From Sipunculus nudus (lineage: Eukaryota > Annelida > Sipuncula > Golfingiida > Sipunculidae), in the NCBI GenBank assembly GCA_026874595.1, contig CM049309.1, forward strand, positions 94,078,723-94,142,722: a DNA stretch of 64,000 nucleotides, in the 5' to 3' direction. The position numbers and the translations under genes are program-made. The notes under the pieces are model-generated. The model did no database searches. It was not told the origin of the DNA and saw only the letters and a list, made by a program, of their open reading frames with translations. Shown here piece after piece: positions 1-43,265 of the stretch (the stretch's first letter is position 1; every line of letters begins with the position of its first letter).

Positions 1-3000
1 CATATTTGAAATTGAGGTATTGGTGGCGCCACCTGCATCGGCTTTTTTTGTACGGGGTCGACAGTGCCTTTATCACACTGAAGGCTACAAAAACTTCTTC
101 TCTGAAACCATATGGCCAAAATGTTTAATATCGCACAGAAATGATCCTAGGGTAGTGCTTTCTGAAGTTTGTTCAAATGGTCTCTTTTCAGTGACTTTTG
201 GCTAAGTTATGGGAAGCTGAATTTAATCATATGCCATAACAGCCCATTTTATCTCAGTGGCCACAAAGATCTTCTTCTCAAAAACCACTGGGCCAAATTC
301 TTAAATCTTGCACATTAATTATCCTCAGATGTTGATAATTCAAGTTTGTTCAAATGGTTTTGGTTCAGTGCTTTTTGGCTGAGTTACGGGAAGCTGAACT
401 TAGCCAGTTTGCTGTATCTTCCTATATGAGTTATAAACCTGCCAAATGTTTTTCGACTGATGCCACTGAAGCCAGTTTGTTAAATATTTTACATGAATAA
501 TCCCTACCATAATTCTATAATTGTCATTAATGGTTCCACATGAATGATTTTTGGCTGAATTAAGGAAATTGAATTGAGTCATTTTACCATATATGTTAGC
601 TGTGTTATGCTGTTACATCTAGCCTGGCACCAGTTTATCAGAATCTATTACATCATGCCACTAGACATTTAGATTTCAGGTTATCTTTAGTTAATATTGA
701 CAAGAAAGTTTTTTTAAAAGCTTTTTAAAATTTTAAATTTATGAATTAAGTCATTCATCATACCAGGCAATATTACAATCAAGGATATTCAGCTCTCTGT
801 GGCTATATAAAGACAACTGAATGTGGATTATAAATTATTGGTATCCCTATTAAACTTAATTCAAGAATTTGCCATCAGTGAGATATATCTGTATTTTAAT
901 TTTGCATTCAGTATGCATCCGTAATAATTTTACATATATTCCTGATTTCTTTTTTTTATAAAAAGTTAGCTGAAAAGCATTTTGTATTGGAAAAATAAAT
1001 TTCAAAGTTATTTCAAGTAGGGACCACTTTTGTGTACAGATGGGAGCACTTGGTTTACCATTGGCAGATTGCCTGTGCCTTGATGTTGGCCATTAGCCAG
1101 GATGATGTCAGCTGTATAAATAATTTTGGCACAGTGCCAGGATTGGAAGAAGTGCAGCCAGGTATAGGTCAAGAGTTCACTCAGTGCAGTAGCTGCATTC
1201 TATTTATAGCTTTGGCTCACTGCATCATATTTGGTACCAAAGTTCAGCCTGAATCTATTTATAGCTTTGGCAGACTGCCAACTTTGTCAGATTATGCAAC
1301 AGGTCAAGAGTTCACTTAGTGCAGCCAGGTACAGGTCAAAAGTTCACTCAGTCTAGCCAGGTGCAGGTCAAGAGTTAACTCAGTGCAGTAGCTTGAGGCA
1401 GCAATTTGTCACAGGTCACTCGGGGGCAACTGCCTTACTCACCTAAGCCTTGTCAGCCCAGTTCATCAAACTCTTGGGAAGTTTGTTGTATTGGACTGAT
1501 ATTTTGACCTGTCTATGTGTCTTTGATGGTATTCTCATAAGACATGTTGGTATTCTTATAAGACAGGTGGTGCCACCTACATTGACTTTTGCAGTGTATG
1601 CGCCTGCTTACTTCTACAGAGGAATTTGATACATCAGCCTAAAATTTGGCATGTTTATACATATCGGGTAGCTTTATAGTGTACATGGCTGGTGGCACAA
1701 ACCTACAATAATTTTTGCACAGTGTATGTCCCTGCTTATTTCACAGGAGGGGTTTGACATATCAGTCTGACATTGGGCATATTTATATATCTCTTCGTTG
1801 TATATAAGACTGGTGGTGCCAGCTACAATCATTGTATCCGCCTAATCAGAGTTTTGCAGATACTATGATTTCAGTCAGACGCTGATGCTGCCGCCATCAC
1901 TGCATAGGTTTCTGGAGAACTTCTTTATAACCACTGGGCAGAATTTTTTAAAATTCGGAATTATGATCAGTCACATGTAAACTGGTGCGCCCTCATTTTT
2001 CATTGACCTCTGACCTTTCCTCTCTGCCCAGCGTCCATTTGTGCGTCTGATTCCAAACATAAACCCACATATCTCGGTAACCGTTTGACCAATAAGGCTA
2101 AAGATTTTGCACAAATGTAGCCCTTGGAAAGCTTTATAACATACACTAAAAATGGTGGCGCCACCTGGCACCATTTTTGCACAGCGTTCATCTGTTCATC
2201 TGCCTTGGGATAAAAAAACTCATCTCTGCATTGGTTGGACTTATCCACCTGAAATTTTGCAGGTTTATACATCTTGGACGTCTTTCTTGATTTATGACAG
2301 GTGGCTCCACCTACATTCAAGTTTACACTGCAAACATCCAAGCTCATATCTCGGGAACCGTTTGACTGATTGGGCCTAAATTTTGCATGTGTATAGATCT
2401 TACATAGCTCTTCATCATAGGCAAAACTTGTGGCGCCACCTGCAACCACTTATGCACAGCGTCCATCTGTTCATCTGCGTTAGGATAAAATCACTCATAT
2501 CTCAGCAGTGGTTTGACATATCCACCTGAAATTTTGCAGGTTTATATATCCTGGACAGCCTTCTCGATTTTATGACAGGTGGTGCCACCTACATTCACGT
2601 TTACTCTTCAGACATCCAAGGCTCATATCTCGTGAACCATTTGACCGATTGGGCCAATATTTTGCTTGTGTATAGATCTCACATAGCTCTTCATCATAAG
2701 CAAAACTGGTGGTGCCACCTGCAACCACTTATGAACACCGTCCATCTGTTCATCTGCCTTGGGATAAAATCACTCATATCTCAGCAGTGGTTTGACTTAT
2801 CCACCTGAAATTTTGCAGGTTTATACATCCTGGACAGCTTTCTTGATTTATGACAGGTGGCTCCACCTACATTCACATTTATGTTGCAGACATCCATTCT
2901 GATATACAACAGGCCTCACTCTATTCCCCTTGCCACTTAATCCATGCCTCACTTCACCTGTCCCACTCTGATATCTGCGGACTCTATATACACATAGTCG

Positions 3001-3208
3001 CTTTAAGCGCTTGTTGACTACCAACATTATTCTAGTTTCAAATGTGCTAGTCTGAAACTTGCAGGTCTGAAATGTCCATTTTGCTGAAATCATAATGACT
3101 AACGTAGATATGCAGGACTTAAAAGGATCAATATTAAATTTTAAAAATAAACCTCCATTCATACTCCCAAACTTTGCATAGGTTCGCATTAGGCCTGTAG
3201 GCCTTGTT
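1..3208 (+). mobile_element. Family A element, copy A1 (cut by window edge, interrupted by B1)
   Basis: Bases 1-1836 match 29950-31745 (copy A2) almost base for base for about 1.8 kb, apart from small indels. The 5' end lies outside the window. The match stops at the B1 insertion (1837-3035), and the element resumes at 3036. It ends with GGTTCGCATT and a hairpin (AGGCCT-GT-AGGCCT) followed by TTGTT near 3208. The same terminal block occurs at 31891-31922 and 43236-43265. One GGTGGCGCCACC palindrome is at 24-35. No coding frame is credible: the frame from base 20 begins at TTG and stays open only about 60 codons. Class is inferred as non-autonomous Helitron/Helentron-like from its ends. Confidence 0.75.
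1837..3035 (+). mobile_element. Family B Helitron-like element, copy B1, nested in A1
   Basis: Starts at TCCGCC after TTGTA and ends at CTAG followed by TT, like the other B copies. The 5' hairpin (degenerate here) leads into GGATACTATG-type sequence and a decayed GCC run. About four internal units of 280 bp follow, each with phrases such as TCTCGGGAACCGTTTGACC and one or two GGTGGCGCCACC-like palindromes. The 3' hairpin is degenerate compared with B2. TGACCTCTGACCTTT at about 2004 is a nuclear-receptor-like half-site pair. No transposase or helicase is encoded, so it is non-autonomous. Confidence 0.75.
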
Positions 3209-5970
3209 AATGAATTTTTTATCGGATTTTTCAACTTTGGCCCTGTGAGCAAGATATCATCAAAGGTATTCAACACAAGAACTTCATTTCTTCAGTGCTG
3301 ATGCATATTTACAAAATCTTGGTCATGTTCAAAGATGGGTGACCTTGACCTACTTTCAAGATTACAGAGCTCAGAATAGAGTAAAACTTAGGAGCTTATT
3401 TCTCAGGAAGCATTTGGTGGATTGTTATGAAACATGGTGCATACCTCTCAGTTTAAATTTATAACTGAGACATTACAGATTTAGGTCCATGTGAGAACAA
3501 ATATTTTGTACTTGTTACTGTTACCACGTATAAACACTGTTCTTTTGGCTGAGGGCTTTTGTCAGCTTTTGCTGATATTCTAGTTTTTTATGAATATAGG
3601 ATATCTTAAGGAGCTGTGTGTTATTGATTGTACTACTTGATTTTAAGATGTATATATGGATTTAGACTTGGTATGCAAGCCCACTCATTTATGCCAGAAA
3701 AGGAGTGGAAACAAGGTTTAAACCTATATTTCATTAACATTTGGGGACAGGCTGCAATGGGAATACAGGAAGCAGGTAGTGTATCTGTGATAAGAGCAAC
3801 ATTAAAGGAAACCTCCAGAAGGTTAGCTGACCCATCAAATGAACTTAAAGTGAGCACAGAGATGATACTGTCAGCAGCTAAGAGAGGATGACAGTTGAGT
3901 GTAAAAGGCTCCAGCATTTAAGTGGAAACTAAAGAAACATTTAACAAAAACATTGACATTTAAGGATGCACTTTACTGAAAGAGGGAACACCTTAATACA
4001 GAAAACATACATTTTTGTAACTCTTGCTATGTAAAAGGTCTTGTAGAGTTTTAAGAAAACATTGAATAGATGGTCTATCAGCATGAACCTGACTTAAATT
4101 GTGCCATAGACAGGTTCACTCACATCATTACAGAAATTGATCCCAGGGTTAATTATGCCAGCTCAGAGGTGAAAGTGCTTGTTCAGATGTTGATTTCATA
4201 CAGATGCAGTATGTGAGAGAGCAAAACAATTGTGTTTTCTTGATACTCTTGGAATTAAATTCCTGTCACTGAGGCCAGTACTATTTGGTGGGAGATAGGA
4301 TTTGTAAACCCATCAAGTGGAGTTTGAGATTATTTCAGATAAGAACAATTGGTATGCTGCCAGAGAAACTGCTTACAGGCTTCAAAAGATCCAGCCCAAC
4401 AGAACTTTATGGACTCCATCTTGAGGAACAGACACCACTGTCAGACTTGTCTCCATCTAGCTTTCCCTTGGCTCCAGACCAGAAGTAATGCAGTCATTGC
4501 CCAAGGCCAAGAGTCAAATCAAATGTTGAAACAAAAACTAGAAAAAAGCATGGAAAGGTTCATCCCAGGTGGGTTTAACTTGTTAGATAGGAAATTAACA
4601 TGAGAAATAGATCAGAGTTCTGTCCAAAGTAAGATTTACTTGACAAGTTTCCGATCTGTTTTTATTTTTACTACATCTACAACAGAGGTGAGATCTGTTA
4701 AACTGGGTCAATCAACCAGTGAAAGAGAAAGTGAAATAAAACAGGTGAAATCAACCAATCAAAGAGGATAATTCAGTAAAAATGGTTAAATCAAGTTGAC
4801 CAATAAAGAGGAAATGTCAGAGTATTTCAACAAAAGTTACGACCTTTTATGTATTCAAGTTCATGCTTGGGATATTTACAAAAGCAGACCAACTCAGGAA
4901 TAGTCCAGCTTTATCTGCAGCTCACATTAAACAAAAAGAACTATATGTCTGATAGTTTAACTGCTAAATCTTGAGTGAGCTTCAGCCATGAGATAAAACA
5001 TTGTTTGAACTCAAATGTTTCATAGATAACCCAGTTATTTTGTAAATGTTATTGACAGATTAAGATGAATTACCTCCAGAGAAGTTACACTCATGGAGAT
5101 TTTCCTGACTGACTGCAGCTTACTTCCAAGGCATTCAGCTCAGCCTTTTTCATATTCCAGAGTAGTATGCAAGTAGACCCAAGACATGTGTAAAATGCTT
5201 TCTTAAAGTAGGTTACTTATTTGTGTTCAGGTTAATGGACAATTGGTGTCTTTAAAACTCTAAGCCTTGGCATTGTTTCACAGAACATTTATTACAAATA
5301 GAAATCTGTCCAGTTGATAAAATATTTATTATGCTTGTGCAGTTTATCATTCATCCTTATCTCTTTGCTCCCTGCTTCTGGTCTCACACTGTCATCAGAG
5401 ATAATTATCATATATGTAGCTGTCTGTTGTTGTATGTCAGGAAACTGTAAAGATTTTATTAAACAGACATCTATCCAGGTCAAAGGAATAGGAAAAGAAA
5501 ACTTATATTATCAAATTGTTCTTTACCAGTACCACTAGATAGATCTGAAAGTAGCTATAGAATTATTATTGAAATCATGTTTATAGCAAGTTCCAAATTG
5601 AATATGAATAATCATTGTTAACCAATGTTAAAAGTCTGCATGTTTTATTCATAATTGCATTTTCATAATGAAATATTCATTATTTTGAAATAATAGATAT
5701 GGTAATGCTGCCGCATGTGTCATTCATTAATTGCGCATATGAAAGTCTTTTCCTTATCTGTTTAATGAGGTGTAATGATTATATGGATTATATATAGCCG
5801 CTGCTTAAGATATCTGTGGCTCACCTGTACTGTGTTGTCATGGTAATCTTGAAGAGTGTTTCTACCAGTATACATTGCATCATCAATCTGTCATCATATT
5901 TTATGAAAAATAAAATGACATAATGATGTTAATCATATTTTATAAAAGGTGACACAATGTTGTAATTGTA
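3209..5970. other. AT-rich single-copy stretch, probably intronic or intergenic
   Basis: There is no tandem array and no match to families A-D. A decayed protein-like segment is annotated separately at 3640-4600. Bases 5690-5880 hold a dense run of TAAT, TATCTG and CACCTG motifs and could be regulatory. The rest shows nothing I can name. Confidence 0.5.
3640..4600 (+). pseudogene. Decayed protein-coding relic of unknown origin
   Basis: Three neighbouring plus-strand segments look protein-like but are separated by stops and frame changes. The first runs from about 3664 to 3891 and is rich in charged residues. The second, at 4073-4216, is open for 47 codons and reads HEPDLNCAIDRFTHII in part. 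The third, at about 4285-4600, has two overlapping frames that continue each other across a likely frameshift near 4420-4490. No splice signals fit. I do not recognise a family; a dead transposon gene or a processed pseudogene would both fit. It could also be chance, because each piece is short. Confidence 0.3.
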
Positions 5971-7442
5971 TCCGCCAAAACGAAGTTTTGCGGATACTAT
6001 GTTTTTGACCGGGTTCCGCCGCCGCCGCCGCCGCCGCCGCGTTCGTTTCCGGAGAACTCCTCTGAGACTACTGGACAGATTTTTCCGAAACTTACACAAA
6101 TTATCGGGTCACATGTGAACTGGTGCCTAACCAAGTGACCTTGACCTCTGACCTTTCGTCTCTGCCCAGCGTCCGTTTGTGCGTCTGTTTACACACATAA
6201 ACCCATATATCTCGGGAACCGTTTGACCGATCCGGAAAATTTTTTTACACAAATGTAGCCCTGGGATAGCTTTATAACATACACAACAAAAGGTGGCGCC
6301 ACCTGCAACCATGTTTGCACAGTGTCCATCTGTTCATATGCCTGGGGTTAAAATCACTCATATCTCTGCAGTGGTTTGACTAATTCACCTAAAATTTGGC
6401 ATGCATATACATCCTAGATAGCTTTCTCAATTTTATGACAGGTGGCGCCACCTACATTCACGTTAACGCTCCACACATAAACCCATATATCTCGGGAACC
6501 GTTTGACCGATCCGGAAAAAATTTTTACACAAATGTAGCCCTGGGATAGCTTTATAACATACACAACAAAAGGTGGCGCCACCTGCAACCATGTTTGCAC
6601 GGTGTCCATTTGTTCATCTGCCTGGGGTTAAAATCACTCATATCTCTGCAGTGGTTTGACTAATTCACCTAAAAATCGGCATACGTATACATCCTAGATA
6701 GCTTTCTTGATTTTATGACAGGTGGCGCCACCTACATTCACGTTGACGCTCCACACATAAACCCATATATCTCGGGAACCGTTTGACCGATCCGGAAAAA
6801 AATTTTACACAAATGTAGCCCTGGGATAGCTTTATAACATACACAACAAAAGATGGCGCCACCTGCAACCATGTTTGCACAGTGTCCATTTGTTCATCTG
6901 CCTGGGGTTAAAATCACTCATATCTCTGCAATGGTTTGACTAATTCACCTAAAATTCGGCATGCGTATACATCCTAGATAGCTTCCTTGATTTTATGACA
7001 GGTGGCGCCACCTACATTCATGTTAACGCTGCAGACATCCAAGCTCATATCTCGGGAACCGTTTGACCGATCCGGAAAAAAATTTTACACAAATGTAGCC
7101 CTGGGATAGCTTTATAACATACACAACAAAAGGTGGCGCCACCTGCAACCATGTTTGCACAGCGTCCATCTGTTTGTCTGCTGTGGGATAAAATCACTCA
7201 TATCTCTGCAGTGGTTTGACTTTTCCACTTGAAATTTTGCATGTGTATATATCTTGGATAGTTTCAAGTTCAAATAACAGGTGGCGCCACCTACAATCAT
7301 GTTTATGTGGCAGAGATCCAATACTAATATTTTACATATGTAACTCTATATCCCCTTGCCACTCAATCCATGCCTCACTTCACCCGTCCTTCTCTGATTT
7401 TGGCGGATACACGTAGTCGCTTGTCGACTACCCGTATTCTAG
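5971..7442 (+). mobile_element. Family B Helitron-like element, copy B2 (best preserved)
   Basis: The 5' end is TCCGCCAAAAC-GAA-GTTTTGCGGA, an inverted repeat, preceded by TTGTA. A GCC triplet run follows at about 6017-6040. The core is a tandem array with a 280-bp period (anchors at 6191, 6471, 6751 and 7031). Palindromes GGTGGCGCCACC fall at 6292, 6441, 6572, 6721, 7001, 7132 and 7280 (the one at 6852 is mutated). Near the 3' end GGCGGATAC mirrors the 5' GTATCCGCC. Then comes the hairpin GTAGTCG-CTTGT-CGACTAC, seven bases, and CTAG. These are Helitron hallmarks, and the added inverted end repeat is typical of the Helentron/Helitron2 branch. It has no coding capacity. Confidence 0.85.
6017..6040 (+). 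repeat. GCC trinucleotide run inside B2
   Basis: About eight uninterrupted GCC triplets lie just inside the 5' end of B2. Other B and D copies carry shorter or interrupted versions at the same place. Confidence 0.9.
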
Positions 7443-9845
7443 TTCCAAAATGTGTTTAAAAAATGTGGGTTTAAGTATCATTTTAAGTCATTGTAAACTT
7501 AATGTAATTCCATTACATCTGGAAGTATGGATTGCTATCACTGAGCCAATTCTTCAGGAAGAATTATTAACAGGAATACAGTTGTAAGTTCAGGTTTCTT
7601 TCAGTTTGATATATAAAACTTGATAATATTTTTCTACTGTTTTTGTGGACATCATGCCTTGGTGAATCAGAGTGTAGAATGTCATCACCCACTAGCTGCT
7701 GGTTTCAGATCTGACCTTTACATAACTCAGAAAATAGATGTCCTTCATCTGGTTGATCTCTGGGGGATGGATCTTCATCACACAGAAGTAGAAACATCCC
7801 CAATGTATAACAACCGCAGCCTCGGTGGCTGAGGGGGTCTACATGGCATCAGTGTCTTCAGCTCTTGTCACAATATGCCAGGGCTGGAGCAAGGCTGAGC
7901 AGAATGACTGAGCCAGCTGTAAGGAAAGTGGAGCTTTACCTGGAGCCAGGAAGAAGGTCCTAGATTCAATAACGGCAGACTGTGCAGGCGGGCTCTCCCG
8001 GGCATCCCCCAGGAACAAGCTAAAACTGTGAAAATGTGATATATGGTAACATTCCTCCTCCAGACCAAAAGCCTCCAGCCTCCAGACCATCTTGTCTATC
8101 TGACCTCGCTGAGGTGACATCTATATTTTTCTGTGCCACCACAGACTTATTACCTGTGTTATCAGAATTGAGGAAGTAATGTATTCACCTCTTCTGTTTT
8201 TTCTGTTTGTGTTTCTATGTATACTTCCTGTGTATGAAATAAATCAGTGGATCCCACAGCATTTTATGAAGAAACGGGTCCAGTTTAAGGAAACCAATTT
8301 AAGGAAACTTATAACAGATATGGTATATTTCATCCACATTCTTAATTTGTATTGGCACCTTCATTTGAGCAGATTTTAATCTTTAAGTGGCAGGGAATAA
8401 ATGTGGAATAAATGCATATTTTGAGTGGCCTTGATAAAAATCAAGCTATGAAAAAATATATTTGAGCTTTTAATCTTATTAAGATTTCAAGTATTTGTCA
8501 GTTTTTGTATTATTTTCGAATTATTTAGTATAAAACAAATGAATAGCTCCTGGTGCTGACTTCTAGTGGTGAAATTTTGTACTTATGTGAATAGAGGAAA
8601 AGTTCAATTCATTTTGGAAATGATCCATACTGTTGGTTTATGAAGGAAACATTAACTGACATCAGTATGATAAAATTATATGACAAATATTTTAAATATA
8701 TATGTATTAGTAATTCAACTACCTTAATAACCTTTTTAGGTAGATACTTTATATATTTATTCTGTAAGCACAGAAACTGAATTCTGTAGCCAGTAGTGAA
8801 TTAAAATTCCTAATTTATAAAGTACACAGTAAAATGAAGTTTGACATAGCCATCAGACCTGCAGAACACCTACACTAACCCAGACTTTAATTTGTTCACT
8901 TATTCTTAGCCAGAAAATAACTTGTGAATCCCATGTATGCCCCTCATAAGATTTCAGCCTTTATTTTTTTTACCATGACTGGATCAGTAGTTAAATTTAA
9001 CTTTCAAGTCATACTCCCAAATATTGTCATGCCTGAACATAAATGGTAAAAGTAGCACCAATCTAGTTGGGCCAGTAATTTCTGAATCCTTTGATGGAAT
9101 TTTATATGAATTCACTCACTTTTCATAAATAATTGGGTTAAAAAACACCTCAAGGAAAACTAGATCTCTGTGGAAAATCATAATTGAGCTAAATAGTTCC
9201 CTTCGTCTAAATTCCAATATATTGTTTTTATTAAAATGATAGATGTTGTTAAAATGAAAACCAAGACAAATGTTGACTGTTTGTATAATGGTCCTCTTGG
9301 CCATTGTTTATAATTAAATTTGAGTTCTATCACTAAATTGGATTTCTTTCCCCATGATATTACAGGTTAAATTTTGATTAATCAAACAGGACTTATGTTT
9401 TCTCATGTTAGTTTATTCTTTTACAAATAAAGATTTTTTTATAAATAAATGCATCTTAGGATTGAGCTAGGCCTTTTGGACTTCTGCAGCCTTTTGGACA
9501 TCTGTATCAATACTTAGATTTGTGAAGATGTATATGCTGGTAAAATTTGAATAAGCACATGTTCTGTTTTGATAATGACAAAATAATAAAAAAAATATAC
9601 CCTGATTATGTGTGTCATGTCAGAGTACCACTCCTGTGTCTGTGGTCATACATTGATCTTCAGAGCCTGAAACATTGAATCCTATGGAGAACAATTTGGT
9701 AAAAAATGCTCATAATAAGCACGACAGAAATGTAGTGTTTTGCTTTCATATGTCAATAATATCAATTGTTGGGGCTTTTGGATGGTGTTGTCACAACCCC
9801 TGGATGAAAGCCGGTAATGTTATTTGTTGTTTGTCGATATAACAG
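7443..9845. other. Single-copy stretch upstream of the first supported exon
   Basis: No array and no copies of families A-D. Bases 7650-8125 are less AT-rich than the surroundings and hold opposing short open frames of under 95 codons with no splice context. The remainder is AT-rich and shows nothing identifiable. Confidence 0.5.
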
Positions 9846-9930
9846 CTGGTCCCTGGGCAGAGTGCTCGGCCACGCATCATGTATTCACGTAGAACACCAT
9901 CCTTCACAACTGTGACAGACCTACAGTCAG
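9846..9930 (+). CDS. Internal coding exon 1, unrecognised protein
   Basis: Bases 9846-9930 are flanked by a 3' splice site (GATATAACAG before 9846) and a weak 5' splice site (TCAG then GTACAT). Only one frame is open. It starts in phase 0 and ends one base into a codon. The 28 codons include RPRIMYSRRTPSFTTVTDL, a basic then Ser/Thr-rich stretch resembling a disordered, phosphorylatable linker (RRTPS would suit a basophilic kinase). The single leftover base fits exon 10735-10775, which starts with the matching two bases, so the two probably belong together. I do not recognise the family. The weak donor is the main doubt. Confidence 0.5.
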
Positions 9931-10775: not shown

Positions 10776-11380
10776 GTGAGTGGACAATGATAATGGTTGT
10801 CATCACATATGAAAGCACAGTGCTGGTCATTAAACAAAAATGATTAATGAAGGGTAGTATTGCAGTGTATCTCTGTGTTTGTGCCCATTTGCATCAACAT
10901 CCTGAATGCATTAGGAGTACTCCTGCATGAAACTTAATCTGCGGTGAAGGCATACCAGGCCCGGGGTCTACTACGATCCAGGTCTTTACCCGAGTTCTTT
11001 GTGTAGTAACAACAAAGTACCTGGCAGGCATTACAGGTAGAAATCTGAACTTGAGGTGAGAGGCTGTGTGAAGCCAGGGAACACCTGAAAACAGTTAGGA
11101 AAACAGGAAGTAAGCTGGTTGTGTTGGTGCAGTCTTATCGTATCAGATCGCGATGCCGGCAGTCCAGGTAAATCTTCACCTGGCAGCAAAAGGCACATTC
11201 CCTTATTCTCCAGAACTAGACTGGTCTCAACCCACTATCCTAGATAGCTTCCATCATACATTCATTGATCATCATTCTGTTAATTAATTTACATAGCAGT
11301 TTTATAGAATAACAGGCTTGTTTTTTTGTGCTGTCTGAAATTTCCAAAGAATCAGATGAATGATCAGATAATGAGTGAAT
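10776..11380 (+). other. Intron start, single copy
   Basis: Unique sequence between the donor at 10776 and the large 65-bp satellite. No open frame, array or transposon end is seen. Confidence 0.5.
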
Positions 11381-26765: not shown

Positions 26766-26800
26766 TTATCCCTGGTAGTTCCCTCAGATCACAATATGGG

Positions 26801-28563: not shown

Positions 28564-29477
28564 TTTTTAGCTCAGCTGACTGTAGGTCATCTGAGTTATA
28601 GCAATCACTCTTTTCCATCTTCAGTCCGGCCGTCTGTCTGTTAACAGGGCACAAATTGTAACCACTGGACCTGGAATCTTCTAACTTTATTTCCAGAGAG
28701 GCTCATAAAAAAAATCTCCTTGGAAACCTGGAATGAGGTTTCTGTTACCCATATTCGTCGAGCTATGGGGCTCGGAAGTACCCCCCAGAATAATGAAAAA
28801 TTTGATTCAAAAGCTCAAGTATCTGACCAACTAATGCATTGATCACCATGAATCTCTGCATGGATATTGATCATGGAGTGTTGCATCAGTTTCTGCAGAC
28901 TGGTGGCGCCACCTGTATTTTTTTTATTTTTTTTACTATTTTTTTTTCTATTTTTGAGACCTTAAAAGATGCAGTCATCTGTTAACAGGGCACAAATTGT
29001 AACCTTTGGTCCTAGAATCTTCTAACTTGACATCCAGGGAGGTCTGTGAAAAATATCCTCGGAAACTTGAAATTAGGTCTCTGTTACCAATATATTCTCT
29101 GAGCTATGGGGCTTATAAGCACCCCTGAGAATAATTGAAAATTTGATACCAAAGTAGGGCACAAACCATAACCATTTGGACTAGAAACTTCTTACTTGAC
29201 ATCCTGAGAGTTCCTCAAAAGATTTCCCCAGAAACCTGTAATTCGGTCACTGTGACCTATATTCTCAGAGTATTGGGGTATGTTTGAGCACCCCAGAAAT
29301 AATGCAAAATACACACAAATTACCAGATTCTTCAAGAAAGGCTGGTTGGATTGTCATCAGATTTGTTTTGCTTATGGGTCTTGATGAACTTAAGCTAAGA
29401 TGCATGAACAATGATGCCACCTACATTATTGTCAACATGTCAGTCGGCTGAGCGTCATGACCCATGGGTCACTTGTT
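28564..29477 (+). mobile_element. Family C element C4
   Basis: Both ends are present: TTTTTAGCTCAGCTGACTG at 28564 and GTCAGTCGGCTGAGCGTCAT with the palindrome and CTTGTT ending at 29477. It holds about two and a half internal units and one exact GGTGGCGCCACC near 28900. It lies 42 bp before the 5' end of A2 in the same orientation. Confidence 0.85.
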
Positions 29478-29519: not shown

Positions 29520-31922
29520 TTTTTAGCGAACCTGTGAGCTTATGCGATGGTGCGTCGTCATCCATCGTGCGTCATCTGTACGTTAACCATAGCTATCTCC
29601 AAAACGGCAGGAGCTAGCATCACCAAATTTTTTGCAAATAATCAGTCATCCAAAAAACTATATCGGATTTTGTTTATTTTTTTCCTAACAGCATTTTCTT
29701 AGATTTTATAGGGAAAAAGTTAAAAAAGCTTTAAAAATCTTCTTCTCTGAAACTGTCCAGCCAAATTGTCCAATATTTAACAGAAATGATCCCTGGAACA
29801 ATCTTTCTCCAGTTTGGAGATTTTTGGCCGAGATACAGGAGGTTGAACTTTGTTAACTGTGCAAAAAAAGCATATTAAAATTTAAATCTCAGAAATGGCT
29901 AGAGCTATCATCACCAAATTTTATGCCAAAGTTGGTCACATAGGTCATATCTGAAATTGAGGTATTGGTGGCACCACCTGCATCGGCCTTTTTTGTACAG
30001 GGTCATCCGTGCCTGTATCACACTGAGGGCTACAAAAAACTTCTTCTCTGAAACCATATGGCCAAAATGTTTAATATCGCACAGAAATGATCCTAGGGTA
30101 GTGCTTTCTGAGGTTTGTTCAAATGGTCTCATTTCAGTGACTTTTGGCTAAGTTATTGGAAGCTGAATTTAGTCATATGCCATAACAGCCCATTTTAGCT
30201 CAGTGGCTACAAGGATCTTCTTCTCAAAACCACTGGGCCAAATTCTTAAATCTCACATATTCATTATCCTCAGATGTTGATAATTCAAGTTTGTTCAAAT
30301 GGTTTTGGTTCAGTGCTTTTTGGCTGAGTTACGGGAAGCTGAACTTTAGCCAGTTTGCTGTATCATCCTATATGAGTTATAAACCTGCGAAACGTTTTTC
30401 AACTGATGCCACTGAAGCCAGTTTGTTAAATATTTTACAAGAATAATTCCTACAATAATTCTTATGATAATTGTCATTGATAGTTCAACATGAATGAATT
30501 TTGGCTGAATTATGGAGATTTAATTGAGTCATTTTACCACATATGTTAGCAGCGTGATGCTGTTACATCTACCCTGGCACCAGTTTATCAGAATCTATTA
30601 CATCATGCCACTAGACATTTAGATTTCAGGTTATTTTTGGTTAATATTGACAAGAAAGTTTTTTTAAAAGCTTTTAAAAAATTTAGATTTATGATTTAAG
30701 TTATTCATCATACCAGGCAATGTTACAATCATGGATTTTCAGCTCTCTGTGGCTATATAAAGACAACTGTACGTGGATTATAAATTATTTGTATCCCTAC
30801 TCAACTTAATTCAAGAATTTGCCATCAATGAGATATATCTGTATTTTCATTTTGCATTCAGTATGCATCCGTAATAATTTTTTATAAAAAGTCAGCTGAA
30901 AAGCATTATGTATTGGGAAAATAAATTTCAAAGTTATTTCTAGTAGGGACCACTTTTGTGTTCAGATGGCAGCACTATTAGATTGGCAGTGCCTTGATGT
31001 TGGCCATTAGCCAGGATGATGTCAGCTCTATAAATAGTTTTGGCACAGTGCCAGGATGGGAAGAAGTGCAGCCAGGTATAGGTCAAGAGTTCCCTCAGTG
31101 CATAGCTGCATTCTATTTATAGCTTTGCAGACTGCTCACTGCATCATATTTGGCACCAAAGTTCAGCCTGAATCTATTTATAGCTTTGGCAGACTGCCAT
31201 CTGTGTCAGATTATGCAACAGGTCAAGAGTTCACTCAGTGCAGCCAGGTACAGGTCAAAAGTTCAATCAGTCTAGCCAGGTACAGGTCAAGAGTTCACTC
31301 AGTGCAGTAGCTTGAGGCAGCAATTTGTCACAGGTCACTCGGGGGCAACTGCCTTACTCACCTAAGCCTTGTCAGCCCAGTGCATCAAACTCTGGGGAAG
31401 TTTGATGTTTTGGACTGATATTTTGACCTGTCTATGCATCTTTGATGGTATTCTCATTTACAAGACAGGTGGTGCCATGTACATTGACTTTTACATAGTG
31501 TATGTGCCTGCTTATTTCTACAGAGGAATTTGATATATCAGCCTGAAATTGGGCATATTTATACATATCGAATAGCTTTGTCGTATACAAGACTGGTGGT
31601 GCCACGTACAATAATGTTTGCACAAGGTGTGTCCATGCTTATTTCTCAGGAGGGGTTTGATATATCAGTCTGAAAATTGGCATATGTGTATATCTCTGAT
31701 AGCTTCGTTGTATACAAGACTGGTGGTGCCAGCTACAATCGTTTTTTTGTTGTGTGCACCCATGCCAGAATTTCAGCAGTGATGTTTGTGTAATTGTTTC
31801 TTATTCAAAATGTTTAGTACTTGCATTGTTCATATACATGAAAAGTAATGGTCCAGCATTGAAGCACTATAACTGGTGTATTTCCCAATGCACAGGTTCG
31901 CATTAGGCCTGTAGGCCTTGTT
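29520..31922 (+). mobile_element. Family A element, copy A2 (complete, no B insert)
   Basis: The 5' end TTTTTAGCGAACCTGTGAG is mirrored at the 3' end by CACAGGTTCGC, an 11-bp inverted repeat (GCGAACCTGTG/CACAGGTTCGC). ATT, the hairpin AGGCCT-GT-AGGCCT and TTGTT follow. Bases 29950-31745 duplicate 1-1836. Internal short direct repeats (CAGGTCAAGAGTTCACTCAG) occur around 31070-31300. It contains only variants of the GGTGGCGCCACC palindrome (29967, 31468, 31590). No coding frame is convincing. The class is inferred from the end design. Confidence 0.8.
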
Positions 31923-33316: not shown

Positions 33317-33845
33317 TTTTCAGCTCAGCTTACTGAAAGTCTACTGAGGTATAGGTATGGCCGTCCATTAGCAGGGGAAAAATCTTAACCACTGGACGTA
33401 GAAAGTGTACATCTAGGGAGGTCAATTAAAAAAATCTCCTTGGAACCTCAAATTAGGTTAGTGCGACCTATATCCTCTAAGCTGTGGGGCTTTTAAGTAC
33501 CCCAAGGATTAATAAAAAAATTGATACAAAACCTCCAATATCTTGATAATTAATGCATGGATTGCAAAAAATCTTGCCTTGAATATTGACCATGAATAGT
33601 TTTGTCAGTAATTGAAAACTGGTGGTACCATCTTTATTTTTTCAAATTTTTACAATTTTTTTAGCTCAGCTGACTATAAGTCATTTGATCTATAGTCGTG
33701 GTCCATTGTCCGTCATCCGTCTGTCTGTCTGTCCATCCGTAGATGTGGCATGTTTTGAAACCACAAGACCTAGGAATCCAAAATTCAGCATAATATTAGA
33801 TGTCCCCAAGATCTCCTACAAACCCAAAACTGGGTCTTTGTAACA
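33317..33845 (+). mobile_element. Family C fragments C5 and C6
   Basis: C5 starts with TTTTCAGCTCAGCTTACTG at 33317 and holds one unit ending in a GGTGGTACCA variant. C6 starts at 33656 (TTTTTTTAGCTCAGCTGACT) and decays after about 190 bp. Neither has a 3' end. Confidence 0.7.
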
Positions 33846-34565
33846 TTTTTCTTTTGAGAAATTAAGGGAAAAACTCAATTTTTATTAAAAACCTATTGTC
33901 ACACTTCAGGACTGCCTAATATCAAACCACTGATCTTTTTTCTTCATATTTACCATAAATATTCCTCTATATACATCCTATGTACATACCAGCAATGAGG
34001 TCTATATTATATAATTTAAAAAAGTTATTGGCCCAAACATATTGCACTTTGTAAAAAATCAGGAAAAATATTTGGTCACTTAACACAAAAAAATGTTAAA
34101 GCTAGGGACTTTTTCAGTAATATAACTTTTAATTAATTAAAATTTAATTGTATACCCAAAATTAGATCAAAATCTTAAATTTTTTAAAATATTAGCAAAA
34201 CATAAAATTGGTACCTTAAATTTTGCCCAAATTTGACCATGGCACTTTTTGTCTTGTAAGTATATTTAATTTATTTTTCACAGCTGGGATACATGTGGAT
34301 TTAATCTGTTGAATTCTGAAATTTGAAAGTAAAAGCTTAAAAACTATTCTAATTATTGAAGTTTTTCAGATGCTCTAATGTATTTGCATTTTGTATATCC
34401 AAGACCCCACTCTTGCTCACTATAGCATTGCCTAGGTAACCTTATTAGTAATGCAGCACTGGCAGAACACCCCTGCTGTAATAAACACACTTATTCTCAT
34501 TGGCCCTACCCTACCACCCCCCCCCCCCCCCACCACTATACTGCAATACATGGTTTGTTATTGTA
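33846..34565. other. AT-rich stretch with a poly-C run
   Basis: Low-complexity AT-rich DNA, possibly very decayed C6 sequence at its left. A run of about 14 C lies near 34517-34530, just before D1. No gene is seen. Confidence 0.45.
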
Positions 34566-35853
34566 TCGCCAGACATAGTCTGGAGATACTATGGTTTAGG
34601 CACGGTCGCGCCGCCGCCGCCGCAGAGATTTCTTTTGGACACAATAACTCAAAAAATATTTCACAGATCTTTACCAAACTTGGTATATGTATAGATATGG
34701 GTGAGAGGAAGACGCCTATTTAAAATGAGGTCATGACCTCAACTAGGAGAGTGACCTTGACCTTGAATAGGTTCAATTTTGGGGAAAATCACACAAATTC
34801 TTAAATATCTCAAGAAAACTTGCATGGATTGATCCCAAAATCAAGTTGATCAAAGATCTAGGATAGTAATGTCATGTACCGGAAACAGGTGGTGCCACCT
34901 GTTATTCTTTTAGTTGTTTTCGTGCCGTTTAATACCCCATCATTGCCACTTAACAGTACATTTATAACCTGTGAGCATTATAAGTCAAAAACTAATGGAC
35001 AGATTTCTTTCATATTATGCATATACATAGACATGGGTTATGGGATGATGTATATATAAATTGGGGTCATGACCTTTCCTATTAGAGTGGCCTTGACCTT
35101 GAATATTGCCATATATGGTGAAAATTACACAAAATCATTAGTGTCTCAATAAGGGATGCATGCATTGGTCCAAAAATCAACATGTTCGAAGATCTTGGAA
35201 AGTATTGTCATGTACCGGAAACAGGTGGTGCCACCTGTTATTCTTTTACTTGTTTTGTGCCGTTTAATACCCCATCATTGCCATTTATCAGTACTGTGAG
35301 CATTATAAGTCAAAAACTAATGGACAAATTTCTTTCATATTATGCATATACATGGATATGGGTTATAGGATAATGTTTATTTGAATAGGGGTCATGACCT
35401 TTCCAATGAGTGGCCTTGACCTTGAATATTGCCATATATGGTGAAAATCACACAAAATCATTAATTTCTCAATAAGGGATGCATTGATTGGTCCAAAATC
35501 AACTTGAACGAAGATCTTGGATAGTGTTGTCATGTACGGGAAACAGGTGGTGCCTCTGTTATTCTTTTACTTGTTTTCGTGCCGTTTAATACCCCATCAT
35601 TGCCACTTAACAGTATTGTGAGCATTATAAGTCAAAAACTAATGGACAGATTTCTTGCATATGCATAGACATGGGTTAGGGGATGATGTATATTGAAATT
35701 TGGATCATGACCTTTTCTATGAGAATGACCTTTTCTATGAGTGTGGTCTGATATTAATTGTTGCTGAAGATGGGGGACCTATTCTTAAAGGGGGGGGGGG
35801 CGGATTAATTGTCTGGGGATACTATGGCACCTGCGGTGCCAAGAAATATCTAG
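34566..35853 (+). mobile_element. Family D Helitron-like element, copy D1
   Basis: The 5' end is TCGCCAGACATAGTCTGGAG after TTGTA, then ACTATGG and a CGCCGCC run. It contains three tandem units of about 323 bp (anchors TAAGTCAAAAACTAATGGAC at 34981, 35306 and 35628) with GGTGGTGCCACC palindromes. The 3' end holds GTCTGGGGATAC (inverse of the 5' motif), the hairpin TGGCACC-TGC-GGTGCCA, eight bases and CTAG (35850-35853), then TT. It shares the first 60 bp or so with family B but not the core. It is non-autonomous. Confidence 0.85.
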
Positions 35854-36352
35854 TTGTCAACTGTATTTCTTTAAATGTAAAGCTGTTTTTGATCCAATGT
35901 GCACAACTTTTCTTGAAATATTAATTCAAGAAGTAATCCAAGAGATGCAACGTTGTTCTGATGTAGCATTTTAAAGAAATTATTTCCTTTAAAATAATTA
36001 AACAAAATATAATTTAATCCATCAGTAGACATAATTTGATAATATATGAAACAAATCATGGATAAATAAAGGTGCAATTTAAAATTGTGAATTCTGGAGT
36101 GTTATTTTTATATATTTATTGTTTTACAAATTTAAAAAATATATTTTATAAAAAAAAAAGAAAAATATCTGTGCATAATGTGATGTTACCTGACTAAATT
36201 AAGTATAAATGTTGATGCAATTTAGATTTGTGAATCAATTTAAATATTCAGATATATATGATATACTGTAAATATATAGTAAAATTTGTAAATTAAAAAA
36301 AAATGACTTAACAAAAGAAAAAATAGGATCTAACGCAAATATTTGTTCATTA
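35854..36352. other. AT-rich spacer
   Basis: Very AT-rich, with poly-A and TATA runs; no feature is recognised. The last three bases (TTA) are the left target duplication of the next element. Confidence 0.5.
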
Positions 36353-38124: not shown

Positions 38125-38301
38125 TTATTTTCCTGTCTCAGTAGAATGGAAATTTAAGTTATTTGCTTTGTTTTCCATCTCTCTGCCTGTTTTTTAAATG
38201 TTTAAAAATAATTTTATTTAAAATAAATTTTATCCTTTAAGTATATTCAGAGGGTCTGTAACTCCCACCAGTCCCTGTAAGCACCATTGAATTTAATTGT
38301 A

Positions 38302-40620
38302 TCCCCAGACAAAATCGGGATACTATGGTTTCACGACAGTCCTGCCGCCGCCGCCGTCGCAGAAAAACCTTGTGAGTGAGATAACTCAAAAAATATTTCA
38401 CTGATCTTTTTCAAACTTTACATTTGTATAGATATAGGTAAGGGGACGAAGCCTATTTAAAATGGGGTCATGACCTATGATAGGAGAGTGACCTTGACCT
38501 TGAATAGGTCCATTTTTGCTGAAAATAACACAAATTCTTAAATATCTCAAGTAAGCTTGCATGGACTGGTCCAAAAATCAAGGTGACCCAAGATCTTGCA
38601 TAGCCTTGTGATATACAGGAAACTGGTGGCGCCACCTATTATCCTTTTCTTGTTTTTATGCCTTTTAATACCCCCATAAATGCCACTTGACAGTACTGTA
38701 AGCATTATAAGTCAAAAACTAATGGACAGATTTCTTTCATATTATGCACATGTAGAGAGATGGGTTATGGGATGAGGTCTATTTACATTTGGGTCATGAC
38801 CTTTACCATGAGAGTGGCCTTGACCTTTAATGTGTCCATATTTGGTGAAAATCACACACCTCTTATGATATCTCCAGTGTTGATAGCCATATGGATTTCA
38901 AATGTGAATTATGTATGGCTCACCACTAAAGTAAGAACCCTATAGGTTTTAGGGTCATGAGGTCAAAGGTCAAGGTCACTGGACTCGCATCTTAAAAGAT
39001 ACTGTGGATGCGTTTTAAGCCAAACTTTTATTCCAGGTCTTCCATCTTGAATATATAGCTCACTTGCCAATAGTGGATGATCCATATCAATTTTGGGGTC
39101 ACAAGGTCAAAGGTCAAGGCCATAGGAGCTATCTGTCAAAAATTAGTTTCTGGATGATAATTCCTGCTTTTATTGATGTAAAAATTTCAAACTTGACTTA
39201 TATATGTCCCATTGAAAAGCAAGACTCCAATTGATTTTGGGGTCATGAGGTCAAAGGTCAAGGTCAAAGGACACATCTTTAAAAAGATTGTGGATGCATT
39301 TTCAGTCAAACATTTCATCTCAGACCTTTCATCTTGCACATATAGTTCATCTGCCAATAGAGGAAGACCCCTATCAATTTTGAGGTCACAAGGTCAAAGG
39401 TGTAGGTCACAGGAGCCATCTGTCCAAAAATTAGTTTCTGGATGATAATTCCTGCTTTTATTGATGTATGGATTTCAAACTAGACTTGTATATGACCCAT
39501 TGGAACAGCAAGACCCGAATTGATTTTGGGGTCATGAGGTCAAAGGTTAAGGTCACAGGACACATCTTTAAAAAGATTGTGGATGCATTTTCAGCCAAAC
39601 AATTCATCTCAGATCTTTCATCTTGCACATTTAGTTCACCTGCCAAGAGTGGAAGACCCGTATCAATTTTGAGGTCACAAGGTCAAAGGTGAAGGTCACA
39701 GGAGCCATCTGTCCAAAAATTAGTTTCTGGATGATAATTCCTGCTTTTATTGATGTATGGATTTCAAACTTGACTTATATGTGTCCCATTGGAAAAGCAA
39801 GACCAGAATAGATTTTTGGGTCATGAGGTCAAAGGTCAAGGTCACAGGACACATCTTTAAAAAGATGTGGATGCATTTTCAGCCAAACATTTCATCTCAG
39901 ATCTTTCATCTTGCACTTATAGTTCACCTGCCAAGAGAGGAAGAACCCTTTCAGTTTTGAGGTCACAAGGTCAAAGGTGAAGGTCACAGGAGCCATCTGT
40001 CCAAAAATTAGTTTCTGGATGATAATTCCTGCTTTTATTGATGTAAAAATTTCAAACTTGACTTGTATATGTCCCATTGGAAAAGCAAGACCCGCATTGA
40101 TTTTTGGGTCATGAGGTCAAAGGTCAAGGTCACAGGACACATCTTTAAAAAGATTGTGGATGCATTTTCAGCCAAACATTTCATCTCAGACATTTCATCT
40201 TGCACATACAGTTCCCCTGCCAATAGAGGAAGACGCCTGTCAATAGTGAGGTCACAAGGTCAAAAGTGAAGGTCACAGGAGCCATCTGTCCAAAAATTAG
40301 TTCCCGAGATGATAATTCAAGCTTGGGATTAATATCTGGATTTCAAACCTGACTTATATATGGCCCATCAATAAATCTAGACCTCTATTGATTTATATAT
40401 AAAAGTGGATGATCAATATCAATTTTGGGGTCACAAGGTCAAAGGTCAAAGCCACAGGAGCCATCTGTCAAAATTTAGTTTCTGGATGATAATTCCTGCT
40501 TTTATTGATGTACCAAGTGTCAGTATATGCTGCTAAAAATGGGGGCCTATTCTTAAAGGAGGGGGGGGCCATACTATGTCTGGGGATACTCTGGCACCTG
40601 CGGTTCCAAGAAATGTCTAG
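38302..40620 (+). mobile_element. Family D Helitron-like element, copy D2, with nuclear-receptor-like arrays
   Basis: The 5' end is TCCCCAGACAAAATCGGGAT after TTGTA, then ACTATGG and a GCC run. The 3' end is GTCTGGGGATAC, the hairpin GGCACC-TGC-GGTTCC (one mismatch), then AAGAAATGT and CTAG (40617-40620). The right two thirds form a tandem array of about 288-bp units made of two related halves. Each half carries an AGGTCAAAGGTCAAGGTCA-type run. Only the left part has the GGTGGCGCCACC palindrome (38625). There is no transposase. Confidence 0.85.
38960..40454 (+). promoter_or_regulatory. Eleven AGGTCA direct-repeat clusters (nuclear receptor-like)
   Basis: Runs at 38960, 39104, 39248, 39391, 39537, 39680, 39826, 39968, 40114, 40257 and 40436 read AGGTCA-A-AGGTCA-AGGTCA or near variants. 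The first pair matches the DR1 pattern bound by HNF4/RXR/COUP-type receptors. TCAAGGTCA matches the extended half-site of ERR and NR5A receptors. Binding is inferred from motif match only. Confidence 0.55.
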
Positions 40621-40877
40621 TTTCATGTTCTGTATTTATATCCAAAGGTGTTGTAACTCTTCCCCCCCCCCATCATTGAGCCCTAGTTCCTGAGCACTGA
40701 GGATAGTATTTTTATTGGAACTTCAAAAAATCTATGGTGATGCAGTTATTACTGTCACAATTAGCTGAGTGATGTGACCCATGGTTCCCTTGTTTTCTTT
40801 TTTTGAGACCATCAAATGACAGCAATTATGTCAGTTTCTCAGCTGTGTTGTCATCCAGTGTCCTGAAACCCGATGTA
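40621..40877. other. Spacer with a family C 3' end fragment
   Basis: A poly-C run lies near 40662-40671. Bases 40760-40796 (TTAGCTGAGTGATGTGACCC, then ATGGTTCCCTTGTTTT) are a decayed family C 3' terminus without its body. Confidence 0.55.
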
Positions 40878-41663
40878 TTTTTAGCGAACTTGTGAGCTTA
40901 TGCGATGGCTCAGCGTCGTCCGTCCATCGTACGCCGTCCGGGGCTGGTTTTCCGCCATCCATGGCTGTAAGTCAGAAACTGTCGGAGCTAGCAGCTCCAA
41001 ATTACATGTAAGAATTCGTCACATGTGAAACTTGGTGCCCTGGAGCTTATTATTGGGTATCTGCATTAATTTAGATTTTATAGAGAAAAAGCTTAAAAAA
41101 CTTTAAAAATCTTCTTCTATGAAACTGTCCAGCCAAATTGTCCAATATTTCACAGAAATGATCTCTGGAACAATCCCTCTCAAGTTTGTTCGAATGGTTC
41201 CAGTTCGGGGATTTTTGGCCGAGTTACAGGAGGTTGAACTTAGACATCTGTCCAAAAAAGCACACTAAAATTAAAATCTCAGAAACGGCTAGAGCTATAA
41301 TGACCAAATTTTATACCAATGTTTGTCACATGTCATATCTGATTTTGAGGTATTGGTGGCGCCACCTACATTGATGTGTTTTTTACAAGCGAAAATGTAA
41401 TTTTAAACTCTTCTAGCTTATACACTGATTTATGATGAAACTGTTCAGCTGATTGGTTTAAACTTTACAAGAATTATTCTATGGTAGGGTTCTGCCAGTT
41501 TTATAAGAATAGATTGGGTAAATACAGTTTTAAAAAAGCATTGTAGCCAATTGAGAAAGGCTTTCTGTATTTGAAAATAGATTTGACTTCATGCAGCCAA
41601 GTCAAGAGGTCACTCAGTACAAACAGGTGGGGTCCAGACATCACCATGGCAACTGACCTGGCT

Positions 41664-41740
41664 GGGGGGGGGGGGTGTCTAGACAATGTGTCTAGACGTC
41701 TGGACACAGCGTCTAGACATCTGGATACAATGTTTAGATG
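41664..41740 (+). repeat. Poly-G run and GTCTAGAC palindrome cluster in A3
   Basis: Twelve G at 41664-41675 are followed by GTCTAGAC at 41677, 41690 and 41711, with related octamers between. The period is about 21 bp, and each unit is itself a perfect palindrome. Confidence 0.7.
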
Positions 41741-41801
41741 CAGAATTCCCATATTATTGGAACTACATCTTTCAACTGTTTGAAAAAACTTGGTTTGCAT
41801 T

Positions 41802-43092
41802 TTTGGTTGACCTCTGACCTTTCCTTGCTCCCCAGTGTCCATTTGTGCGTCTGTTTCCACACATAAACCCACATATCTTGGGAACCCTTTGACCGATCAG
41901 GCTAAAAATTTTGCACAAATGTAGCCCTTTGATAGCTTTATAACATACACTTGAAATGGTGGCGCCACCTGCAACCATTTTTGCACAGCATCCATCTGTT
42001 CATCTGCCTTGGGATAATATTACTCATATCTCAGCAGTGGTTTGACTTATCCACCTGAAATTTTGCAGGTTTATACATCCTGGACAGCTTTCTCGATTTT
42101 ATGACAGGTGGCGCCACCTACATTCACATTTACTCTTCAGACATCCAAGCTCATATCTTGGGAACTGTTTGACCGATTGGACCAAAATTTTGCATGTGTA
42201 TAGATCTTACATAGCTCTTCATCATAGGCAAAACTGGTGGTGCCATCTGCAACCACTTATGCACAGCGTCCATCTGTTCATCTGCCTTTGGATTAAATCA
42301 CTCATATCTCAGCAGTGGTTTGACTTATCCACCTGAAATTTTGCAGTTTTATACATCCTGGACAGGTTTCTCGGTTTTATGACAGGTGTCACCACCTACA
42401 TTCACATTTACTCTGGAGACATCCAAGCTCATATCTCGGGAACCGTTTGACCGATTAGGCCAAAATTTTGCATGTGTATAGATCTCACATAGCTCTTCAT
42501 CATAGGCAAAACTGGTGGTGCCACCTGCAACCATTTATGCACAGCATCCATCTATTCATCTGCCTTTGGTTAAAATCACTCATATCTCAGCAGTGGTTTG
42601 ACTTATCCACTTGAAAATTTGCAGGTATTTTACATCCTTGACAGCTTTCTCGATTTTATGACAGGTGTCGCCACCTACATTCACATTTACTCTGCAGACA
42701 TCCAAGCTCATATCTCGGGAACTGTTTGACCGATTAGTCCAAAATTTTGCATGTGTATAGATCTCACATAGCTCTTGGCGCTCTTGGCGCCACCTGCAAC
42801 CACTTATGCACAGCATCCATCTGTTGATCTGCTTTGGGATAAAATCATTCATATCTCGGCAGTGGTTTGACTTATCCACCTGAAATTTTGCAGGTTTATA
42901 CATCCTGGACAATTTTCTCGATTATATGACAGGTGGCACCACCTACATTCACGTTTAAGCTGCAGACATCCATGCTGATATGCAACACACCACGCTCTAT
43001 TCCCCTTGCCACTTAATCCATGCCTCACTTCACCCGTCCCACTCTGATTTTTGCGGATACACATAGTGGCTTGTCGACTACCCATATTCTGG
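41802..43092 (+). mobile_element. Family B element, copy B5, 5'-truncated, nested in A3
   Basis: Homology starts within the conserved TTGACCTCTGACCTTTCC segment, without the 5' hairpin or GCC run. Four to five 280-bp units follow, with exact palindromes at 41959 and 42108 and mutated ones later. The 3' hairpin is slightly changed (TAGTGGCTTGTCGACTA) and the end reads CTGG rather than CTAG, still a CTRR terminus. Confidence 0.75.
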
Positions 43093-43265
43093 TTTTAAAA
43101 TGTCGCAGTCCGAAACTTGCAGGTCAGAAACGTCCATTTTGCTGAAATCATAATGACTAAGGTAGATATGCAGGACTTAGAGGATCAATATTAAATTTAA
43201 AAAATAAACCTCCATTCATACTCCTAAACTTTCCACAGGTTCGCATTAGGCCTGTAGGCCTTGTT

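Follow-up and report, generated by a model that had tools for sequence, protein, structure and literature searches.

A common end-and-core design in four families of probable non-autonomous Helentrons from Sipunculus nudus

A stretch of 64,000 nucleotides from Sipunculus nudus (assembly GCA_026874595.1, contig CM049309.1, positions 94,078,723 to 94,142,722 of the forward strand; in the following "the window", with positions counted from its first letter) was found to contain about 16 old non-coding elements and remnants, which belong to four families, A to D, defined by their ends. With a probability of roughly 85%, these are Helentron-associated interspersed elements (HINEs), i.e., non-autonomous Helentrons, that arose by the mechanism outlined below. 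A preliminary description of the sequence had noted that the four families, although different in most of their sequence, share one design of ends and core, and this observation holds. The assignment is based on family-specific subterminal inverted repeats (subTIRs), a 3' palindrome, insertion into T runs without duplication beyond TT, 5' hairpins in B, C, and D, and tandem cores, which together match the published layout. The interpretation given in the preliminary description was thereby upheld in part: an origin as non-autonomous Helentron/Helitron2-type elements is supported, and the use of one rolling-circle machinery by all four families is a conjecture.

The copies were located by comparison of the window with itself and by searches for the ends, including a search with fuzzy end patterns. 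Copies of the same family are mostly 72–90% identical in the longer self-matches, and they are therefore regarded as old. The following elements and remnants were mapped:

1–3208 (+): A0, family A, 5' end beyond the window, B element nested inside; 3' subTIR, AGGCCTGTAGGCCT palindrome, and CTTG|TT, with CTTG ending at 3206
1832–3037 (+): B element nested in A0, directly 3' of an A-core palindrome and in a T run; inverted ends decayed
5966–7444 (+): B1, complete B element; 5' hairpin beginning GTATCCGCC, CCG microsatellite, 280-bp tandem core, 3' subTIR, 19-nt palindrome, CTAG|TT
20122–23517 (+): C1, C element with a 336-bp tandem core, split by B2
22161–23335 (+): B2, B element lying within the T run of one C core unit; empty site available from other C units
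23956–24615 (+): C core unit with a C 5' end (24235) and a C 3' end downstream of it; CTTG|TT, with CTTG ending at 24613
25876–26767 (+): B3, B element truncated at the 5' side
27390–28426 (+): C27, C element with the 3' end CTCG|TT
28564–29477 (+): C28, C element, both ends present
29520–31922 (+): A1, A element with both ends and with core units of 127 bp, free of nested B
33317–33850 (+): C 5' end and core unit, with a second C 5' end (33658) inserted in its T-rich stretch; right boundary arbitrary, no 3' end found for this C portion
34561–35855 (+): D1, D element, both ends present
38297–40622 (+): D2, D element with a 289/146-bp core, both ends present
40759–40796 (+): decayed C 3' end (8/36 mismatches), followed by C-unit-like TTTTTTTGAGACC
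40878–43265 (+): A2, A element carrying a B core and a B 3' end (41798–43094), the B 5' end missing
43266–43889 (+): chimeric remnant of a D-type core (43480–43762) and a C-type 3' end (43854–43889); boundaries uncertain

All end motifs quoted in the preliminary description are present in the window, and its claim that the 5' motif recurs in inverted orientation near the 3' end was clearly borne out for 8 of the 10 elements with two ends. The first 25 bases of each element were compared with its last 60 bases, and the best inverted match was evaluated against 200 mononucleotide shuffles. In these eight elements the score of the own 5'/3' pair was reached by at most one shuffle. A2 was marginal (7/200), and the B element at 1832–3037 was at chance level (122/200). 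The class means of end pairs within families were 8.4–13.0, compared with 3.3–6.5 across families, which is near the null level; the highest single cross-family score was 9, for the pair (D,B). The inverted ends are thus specific for each family. Inverted repeats of about 11–15 bp close to the 5' end and some tens of nt away from the 3' end are characteristic of HINEs. At the 5' side the repeat adjoins the T flank. At the 3' side it is subterminal, beginning 30–43 nt before the element end in A1, B1, C1, and D1 and ending 19–32 nt before the end of CTNG.

The fixed 3' ends that had been described, TTGTT for A and C and CTAGTT for B and D, do exist, but they are better written as CTNG|TT for all four families. 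This sequence was present at 14 of 14 3' ends (CTTG 6, CTAG 6, CTCG 1, CTGG 1), a count in which the pattern was required, because each end was placed at the last CTNGTT found close to where the alignment ended. The fuzzy search revealed three further C-type 3' ends, at 40759 with CTTG|TT, at 43854 (6/36 mismatches) with CTTG|AA, and, outside of the mapped elements, a weak one at 63432–63467 (8/36 mismatches) with CTTG|TG.

In agreement with the preliminary description, A and C share one 5' motif, TTTTTAGC, and B and D share another, TTGTATC. The ends of A and C run from TTTTTAGC to CTTG|TT, with the palindrome 2–4 nt from the end, and those of B and D from TTGTATC to CTAG|TT, with the palindrome 11–12 nt from the end. 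These two classes could mean that two rolling-circle partners were at work, one for A and C and the other for B and D, and that the shared design is a family resemblance. The different 5' ends and microsatellites, the 3' tetranucleotide (mostly CTTG versus mostly CTAG), and the different distances of the palindrome from the end would fit this. However, TT insertion and CTNG|TT are common to both classes, B inserts into A as well as into C, and the cores cross the classes, observations that speak for a single partner while being compatible with two. The existence of two partners, which would also agree with the HINE assignment, is a serious possibility, to which we give somewhat less than an even chance.

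A 5' hairpin formed by the subTIR and its complement is present in B, C, and D. In comparison with shuffled sequences, the 5' inverted repeat was clear for B1, B2, C1, and D1 (0–1/200), weaker for D2 (4), C28 (5), and C27 (19), and not seen in A1, A2, and the B element at 1832. Folding as single-stranded DNA was calculated for ten ends of five elements, i.e., one copy per family and, in addition, D2. The z values of the 5' hairpins were −6.5 for B1, −6.3 for D1, −3.7 for C1, and −1.5 for D2. Inverted arms of the 3' palindrome are present in all four families, and in isolation these palindromes fold more weakly than the 5' hairpins (D1 −2.7, B1 −2.1, A1 −1.9, C1 −0.6, D2 +0.6); few shuffles were as good for D1 (1/200), A1 (8/200), and B1 (10/200). 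In the C copy that ends at 24615, the 3' palindrome is altered on both arms, with GGCCCATGGGCC in place of GACCCATGGGTC, as would be expected if pairing matters. An unconstrained structural scan was weak by itself, yielding 19 raw matches on the plus strand and 9 on the minus strand versus 2–15 per simulated single strand. Matches that also had a 5' inverted repeat numbered 7 (overlapping) on the plus strand versus 0–3 in the simulations.

The preliminary description had suggested a search for T-T insertion sites and had regarded target duplications of a fixed length above 2 bp as incompatible with its reading. All ten elements with two ends are flanked by TT on either side, and no such duplication was found among the copies in the window. 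With the boundaries held constant, a 3-bp flank repeat was excluded for six of the ten (B at 1832, B1, D1, D2, A1, and C27); the flanks of B2, C1, C28, and A2 are T runs, which are equally compatible with its presence and absence. For B2 (22161), a two-sided empty site is available, as the joined flanks align across the junction to nine other C units. In these empty units the first run of at least four T after the palindrome is 4–9 long (9 in the units at 21799 and 24183), and at the filled site 5 T precede the element and 4 T follow it. The site of the B element at 1832 could be compared with the uninterrupted A1 (joined 5 T versus 7 T); its right flank has no clear homology to A1, and hence this empty site is anchored on the left only. 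No base besides T was seen duplicated at the empty sites.

On one side, the C ends at 24235, 33658, and 40796 border directly on T-rich sequence that resembles C units, which gives the impression of three insertions of C into C cores. Together with the B element at 22161, they make the T-rich region on the 3' side of the core palindrome look like a landing site.

The TT flanks bear on the question of whether the elements are miniature inverted-repeat transposable elements (MITEs), moved by a cut-and-paste transposase. The flanking TT of all ten elements could be read as a 2-bp target duplication, inverted repeats are found at both ends, and PMC5139131 classifies the pearl family and DTC84 as MITEs. 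The T-run lengths at the empty sites are compatible with a gain of TT as well as with its absence. The 3' inverted repeat, however, is subterminal and is followed by a separate 3' palindrome, and a MITE origin is considered highly improbable.

A second alternative concerns only B and D, which might be canonical Helitrons with a 5' TC, a 3' CTAG, and insertion between A and T. Their start could be read as GTA|TC and their end as CTAG|T, with a palindrome of 17–19 nt 11–12 nt upstream. Canonical Helitrons are characterized by a 3' CTRR with a palindrome of 16–20 nt about 11 nt upstream, an arrangement that was found in B and D (B1 and D1) and not in A and C. The 5' end does not agree. TTGTATC is conserved upstream of TC in 5 of 5 B and D 5' ends seen, the T run of C units that carry no insertion is not immediately followed by GTA, and the insertion is into the T run itself. 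In addition, PMC4067079 describes the canonical Helitron without subTIRs. Instead of a 5' TC at an A|T site, the window elements show insertion into T runs and subterminal inverted repeats. Canonical Helitrons were rejected for B and D on account of the 5' end, and this alternative is regarded as very unlikely.

An A element with a nested B is present at two sites, A0 and A2, with unrelated 3' flanks. In both, the B 3' end is joined at the same point to a tail about 172 bp long, which is identical at 159 of 172 aligned bases and from which the tail of A1 differs. Beyond the A 3' end they are no longer homologous: in the following 200 bp, 78 of 196 positions are identical, compared with 46/117 to 82/189 in ten shuffles. 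The same junction at two sites with unrelated 3' flanks is most simply explained by an insertion of B into A, after which the composite A[B] probably moved as a unit, a conclusion drawn from the 3' side, as the 5' flank of A0 lies outside of the window. In most pairs of copies, homology ends at the proposed element ends. One alignment of B copies extends 25 bp upstream of the B start, which is explained by a core palindrome that A and C, the two hosts, carry at this position. When 17 flanks were compared pairwise, with pairs of overlapping flanks left out, two short similarities were found, one between the 5' flanks of A1 and A2 (82% over 33 bp), which coincides with C 3' ends located upstream of these two elements, and one between the 3' flank of D1 and the 5' flank of D2 (84% over 25 bp).

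All A to D ends found with few mismatches are on the plus strand and lie within 1–43889. The patterns of this search missed the 5' end of D2 and the 3' end of the B element at 1832, which are both on the plus strand according to the other end search. Five minus-strand matches of whole B and D2 queries, all within stretches that contain B, are interpreted as a reflection of the inverted symmetry of the palindromic core rather than as minus-strand copies. Three minus-strand matches of 5' end patterns, with 9–10 mismatches, fall on the 5' hairpins themselves. Outside of the elements, 98 T runs and 76 A runs of at least five were counted, and thus a target bias alone explains the uniform orientation poorly; the copies may not be independent of each other. 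A local segmental duplication of a repeat-rich block, without any transposition, would account for the fact that all low-mismatch ends and all listed dispersed self-matches are on the plus strand. It would not account for homology that stops at the same element ends across copies, for the presence of B in two hosts, A and C, or for A0 and A2 3' flanks that are no more alike than shuffles. The two short flank similarities stand beside this evidence, and segmental duplication is judged the most improbable of the alternatives.

The preliminary description had reported tandem cores with units of 280–340 bp for B, C, and D, and such units were recovered (B 278–280 bp, C 336 bp, D1 336 bp, D2 289 bp with a sub-period of 146 bp), but it had not mentioned the short tandem core of A1 (127 bp, 2.2 copies). 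It had also called the families unrelated-looking, which proved to be wrong for the cores, as a common palindrome was found in all four families and a box upstream of it in most family pairs. A palindrome close to CTGGTGGCGCCACCT occurs, with at most three mismatches, at 51 separate loci in all four families. All 51 lie inside element intervals, which cover 33% of the window; these intervals were delimited by the authors from the self-comparison, and the one that holds the locus at 43298 is the least certain. The number of strand matches was 91, compared with an average of 0.5 in ten first-order Markov simulations. The spacing of the palindromes is about 121–127 bp in A, 336–345 bp in C, and 336 bp in D1, and alternates near 130 and 148 bp in B, so that the 280-bp unit of B looks like a dimer.

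For the box, five profiles were built from about 100 bp upstream of the palindrome, which was itself omitted; the D profile rests on three sequences. The best cross-family E values were 2e-9 for A–B, 2e-4 for C–B and for D–C, 4e-3 for C–D1, and 5e-3 for A–D. In the reversed window, none of the five profiles had a match up to E 0.5. One B profile gave four weak matches outside of the elements (48179–48223, 57794–57966, and 62013–62106; E 0.016–0.15), which possibly represent a further decayed family. The affinities of cores and ends disagree, as A combines C-like ends with a B-like core. Together with the chimeric remnant at 43266–43889, which has a D core and a C 3' end, this indicates that cores and ends have partly different histories.

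A further motif was noted in B and D. Perfect direct repeats of AGGTCAnAGGTCA, which have the form of a DR1 nuclear-receptor site, were found 12 times, all of them in B- and D-type parts, whereas the mean in ten simulated sequences was 0.0:

Minus strand: AGGTCAnAGGTCA sites at 2004, 6142, 22328, 26026, 41808
Plus strand: AGGTCAnAGGTCA sites at 38960, 39104, 39248, 39826, 40114, 40436, 43575

In five copies of B, the site lies within the longest invariant run of the 5' region (17 bp); as other invariant runs reach 16 and 14 bp, a special conservation of the site cannot be deduced. Alu repeats are a known parallel for sites of the nuclear-receptor type carried by repeats. It is conceivable, though rather unlikely, that the core is more than passive cargo and that its palindromic monomer near CTGGTGGCGCCACCT, together with the nuclear-receptor-like repeats, forms a module with a function, which has been passed between HINE families that differ in their ends and has been retained by them. 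Such a module could act as a signal for replication or landing, or it could be a regulatory site that is disseminated in the genome. In favor of a landing signal, it can be noted that the T-rich stretch after the C-core palindrome took B once and C probably three times. A match of a viral contig (L001) to the 18-bp core palindrome pattern was judged to be due to chance, because only a 20-bp stretch was alike and no core box was better than E 0.09. Rfam gave no match at gathering scores, and literature searches with sequence strings of the core palindrome and of the ends retrieved only works that were unrelated, as judged by their titles.

The closest published counterparts are the 11 Cg_HINE elements of the Pacific oyster (PMC7492417), several of which have unrelated modules and which could not be related to an autonomous Helentron. 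They have the same order of parts, namely a 5' subTIR (normally 11–12 bp) with a complementary inverted repeat, a microsatellite, a tandem core, a 3' subTIR, and a 3' palindrome. Cg_HINEs likewise prefer TT in T-rich DNA, insert without target duplication and into other repeats, and form several families with unrelated ends in one genome. Their core monomers of 138–181 bp, however, are unrelated between several groups, whereas in the window, with the layouts compared by description, the periods reported by Tandem Repeats Finder are 127–336 bp, one palindrome occurs in four families, and the box in most pairs. In PMC4067079, HINEs are defined by subTIRs, a 3' palindrome, and an insertion into T-rich DNA that leaves the target unmodified, and members of one family have identical subTIRs with a length of 11 bp or more. 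By this rule, A to D are at least four families. The HINE/DINE-1 elements and Helentrons of that paper further resemble the window elements in an inverted repeat or palindromic subTIR, a 3' stem loop, T-flanked insertion, and the lack of coding capacity. Short satellite-like monomer arrays inside an element are, by description, also a feature of the group that comprises the pearl family (CvA, CvE, CvG), DTC84, and MgE of bivalves and the BIV160/Cg170 satellites (PMC5139131, PMC11136912, PMC7492417). The shared core has precedents in kind, since a palindrome close to the junction of the repeats is conserved in clam DTC84 and divergent BIV160/Cg170 monomers share two conserved motifs (PMC5139131).

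Several results weigh against the HINE assignment and the common core. Family A has no 5' hairpin (folding z +0.5), and the folding of the 3' palindromes of C1 and D2 was unremarkable, with 57/200 and 144/200 shuffles as good, respectively. Two of the three further C-type 3' ends are without TT, and the T runs at B2 could conceal a duplication of up to 4 T. A direct homology of the A and C cores was not detected at E 0.01 in profile searches of the window, and the D and B cores matched at E 0.05–0.2 only. The distance of 30–43 nt from the start of the 3' subTIR to the element end is at or below the 38–60 nt of mite HINEs, and the 3' end of B and D, with a palindrome of 17–19 nt 11–12 nt before CTAG, has the published layout of canonical Helitrons (both PMC4067079). 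Lastly, no autonomous Helentron was seen, with the Pfam scan covering 20 of the 173 open reading frames (ORFs) of at least 60 aa.

Only some of these 20 ORFs lie in elements; none had a Pfam match above the cut-off, and four matches below it had E values of 0.022–0.14. The longest ORF within an A to D element has 149 aa, and as in HINEs, no coding capacity was found in the scanned ORFs. A six-frame search of the window for the Rep motif pattern given in PMC4067079, for a relaxed version of this pattern, and for a P-loop gave no match. The YxxKY pattern had eight six-frame matches, two of them across stops, which were taken as chance. An explanation by host genes was rejected, because no Pfam match above the cut-off was obtained with the 20 ORFs and a PDB search of three ORFs gave a single weak match (ORF 3628–3888, E 0.025, a single-stranded DNA-binding protein).

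In Helitrons and Helentrons in general, a Rep/helicase protein recognizes the ends and terminates at the 3' palindrome, and the intermediate is single-stranded. For the window elements, we propose that the subTIR/hairpin ends of each family would be recognized by a Rep/helicase/endonuclease that is encoded outside of the window, in one autonomous Helentron or several. Copying would end at the 3' palindrome beside CTNG, and the copy, possibly by way of a rolling-circle intermediate, would be pasted into TT within a T run without target duplication, with the tandem core as a passenger. A single monomer of roughly 130–170 bp with a palindrome close to CTGGTGGCGCCACCT is the probable ancestor of all four cores, and ends and cores have probably been recombined through nesting and deletion. 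What can be read directly from the window are the ends, the insertion into T runs, the shared core, and the composite A[B] at two sites.

The architecture and the multiplicity of such families are already in print for bivalves; the shared core, the exchange of cores and ends, and the T-run empty sites are added here. Besides the oyster, the window is a worked case of several HINE families of the same architecture living together. A core can be common to families whose ends suggest no relationship, and core and ends then have separate histories. This bears on how Helentrons spread satellite-like repeats and on whether a HINE family should be defined by the subTIR alone or also by the core. The T-run empty site and the re-mobilized composite are small, clean test cases.

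Tandem repeats are also found elsewhere in the window. A 7.8-kb array at 11378–19177 consists of 120 copies of a 65-bp minisatellite, and about a dozen further minisatellites with units of 22–64 bp are located between 24.9 and 61.7 kb.

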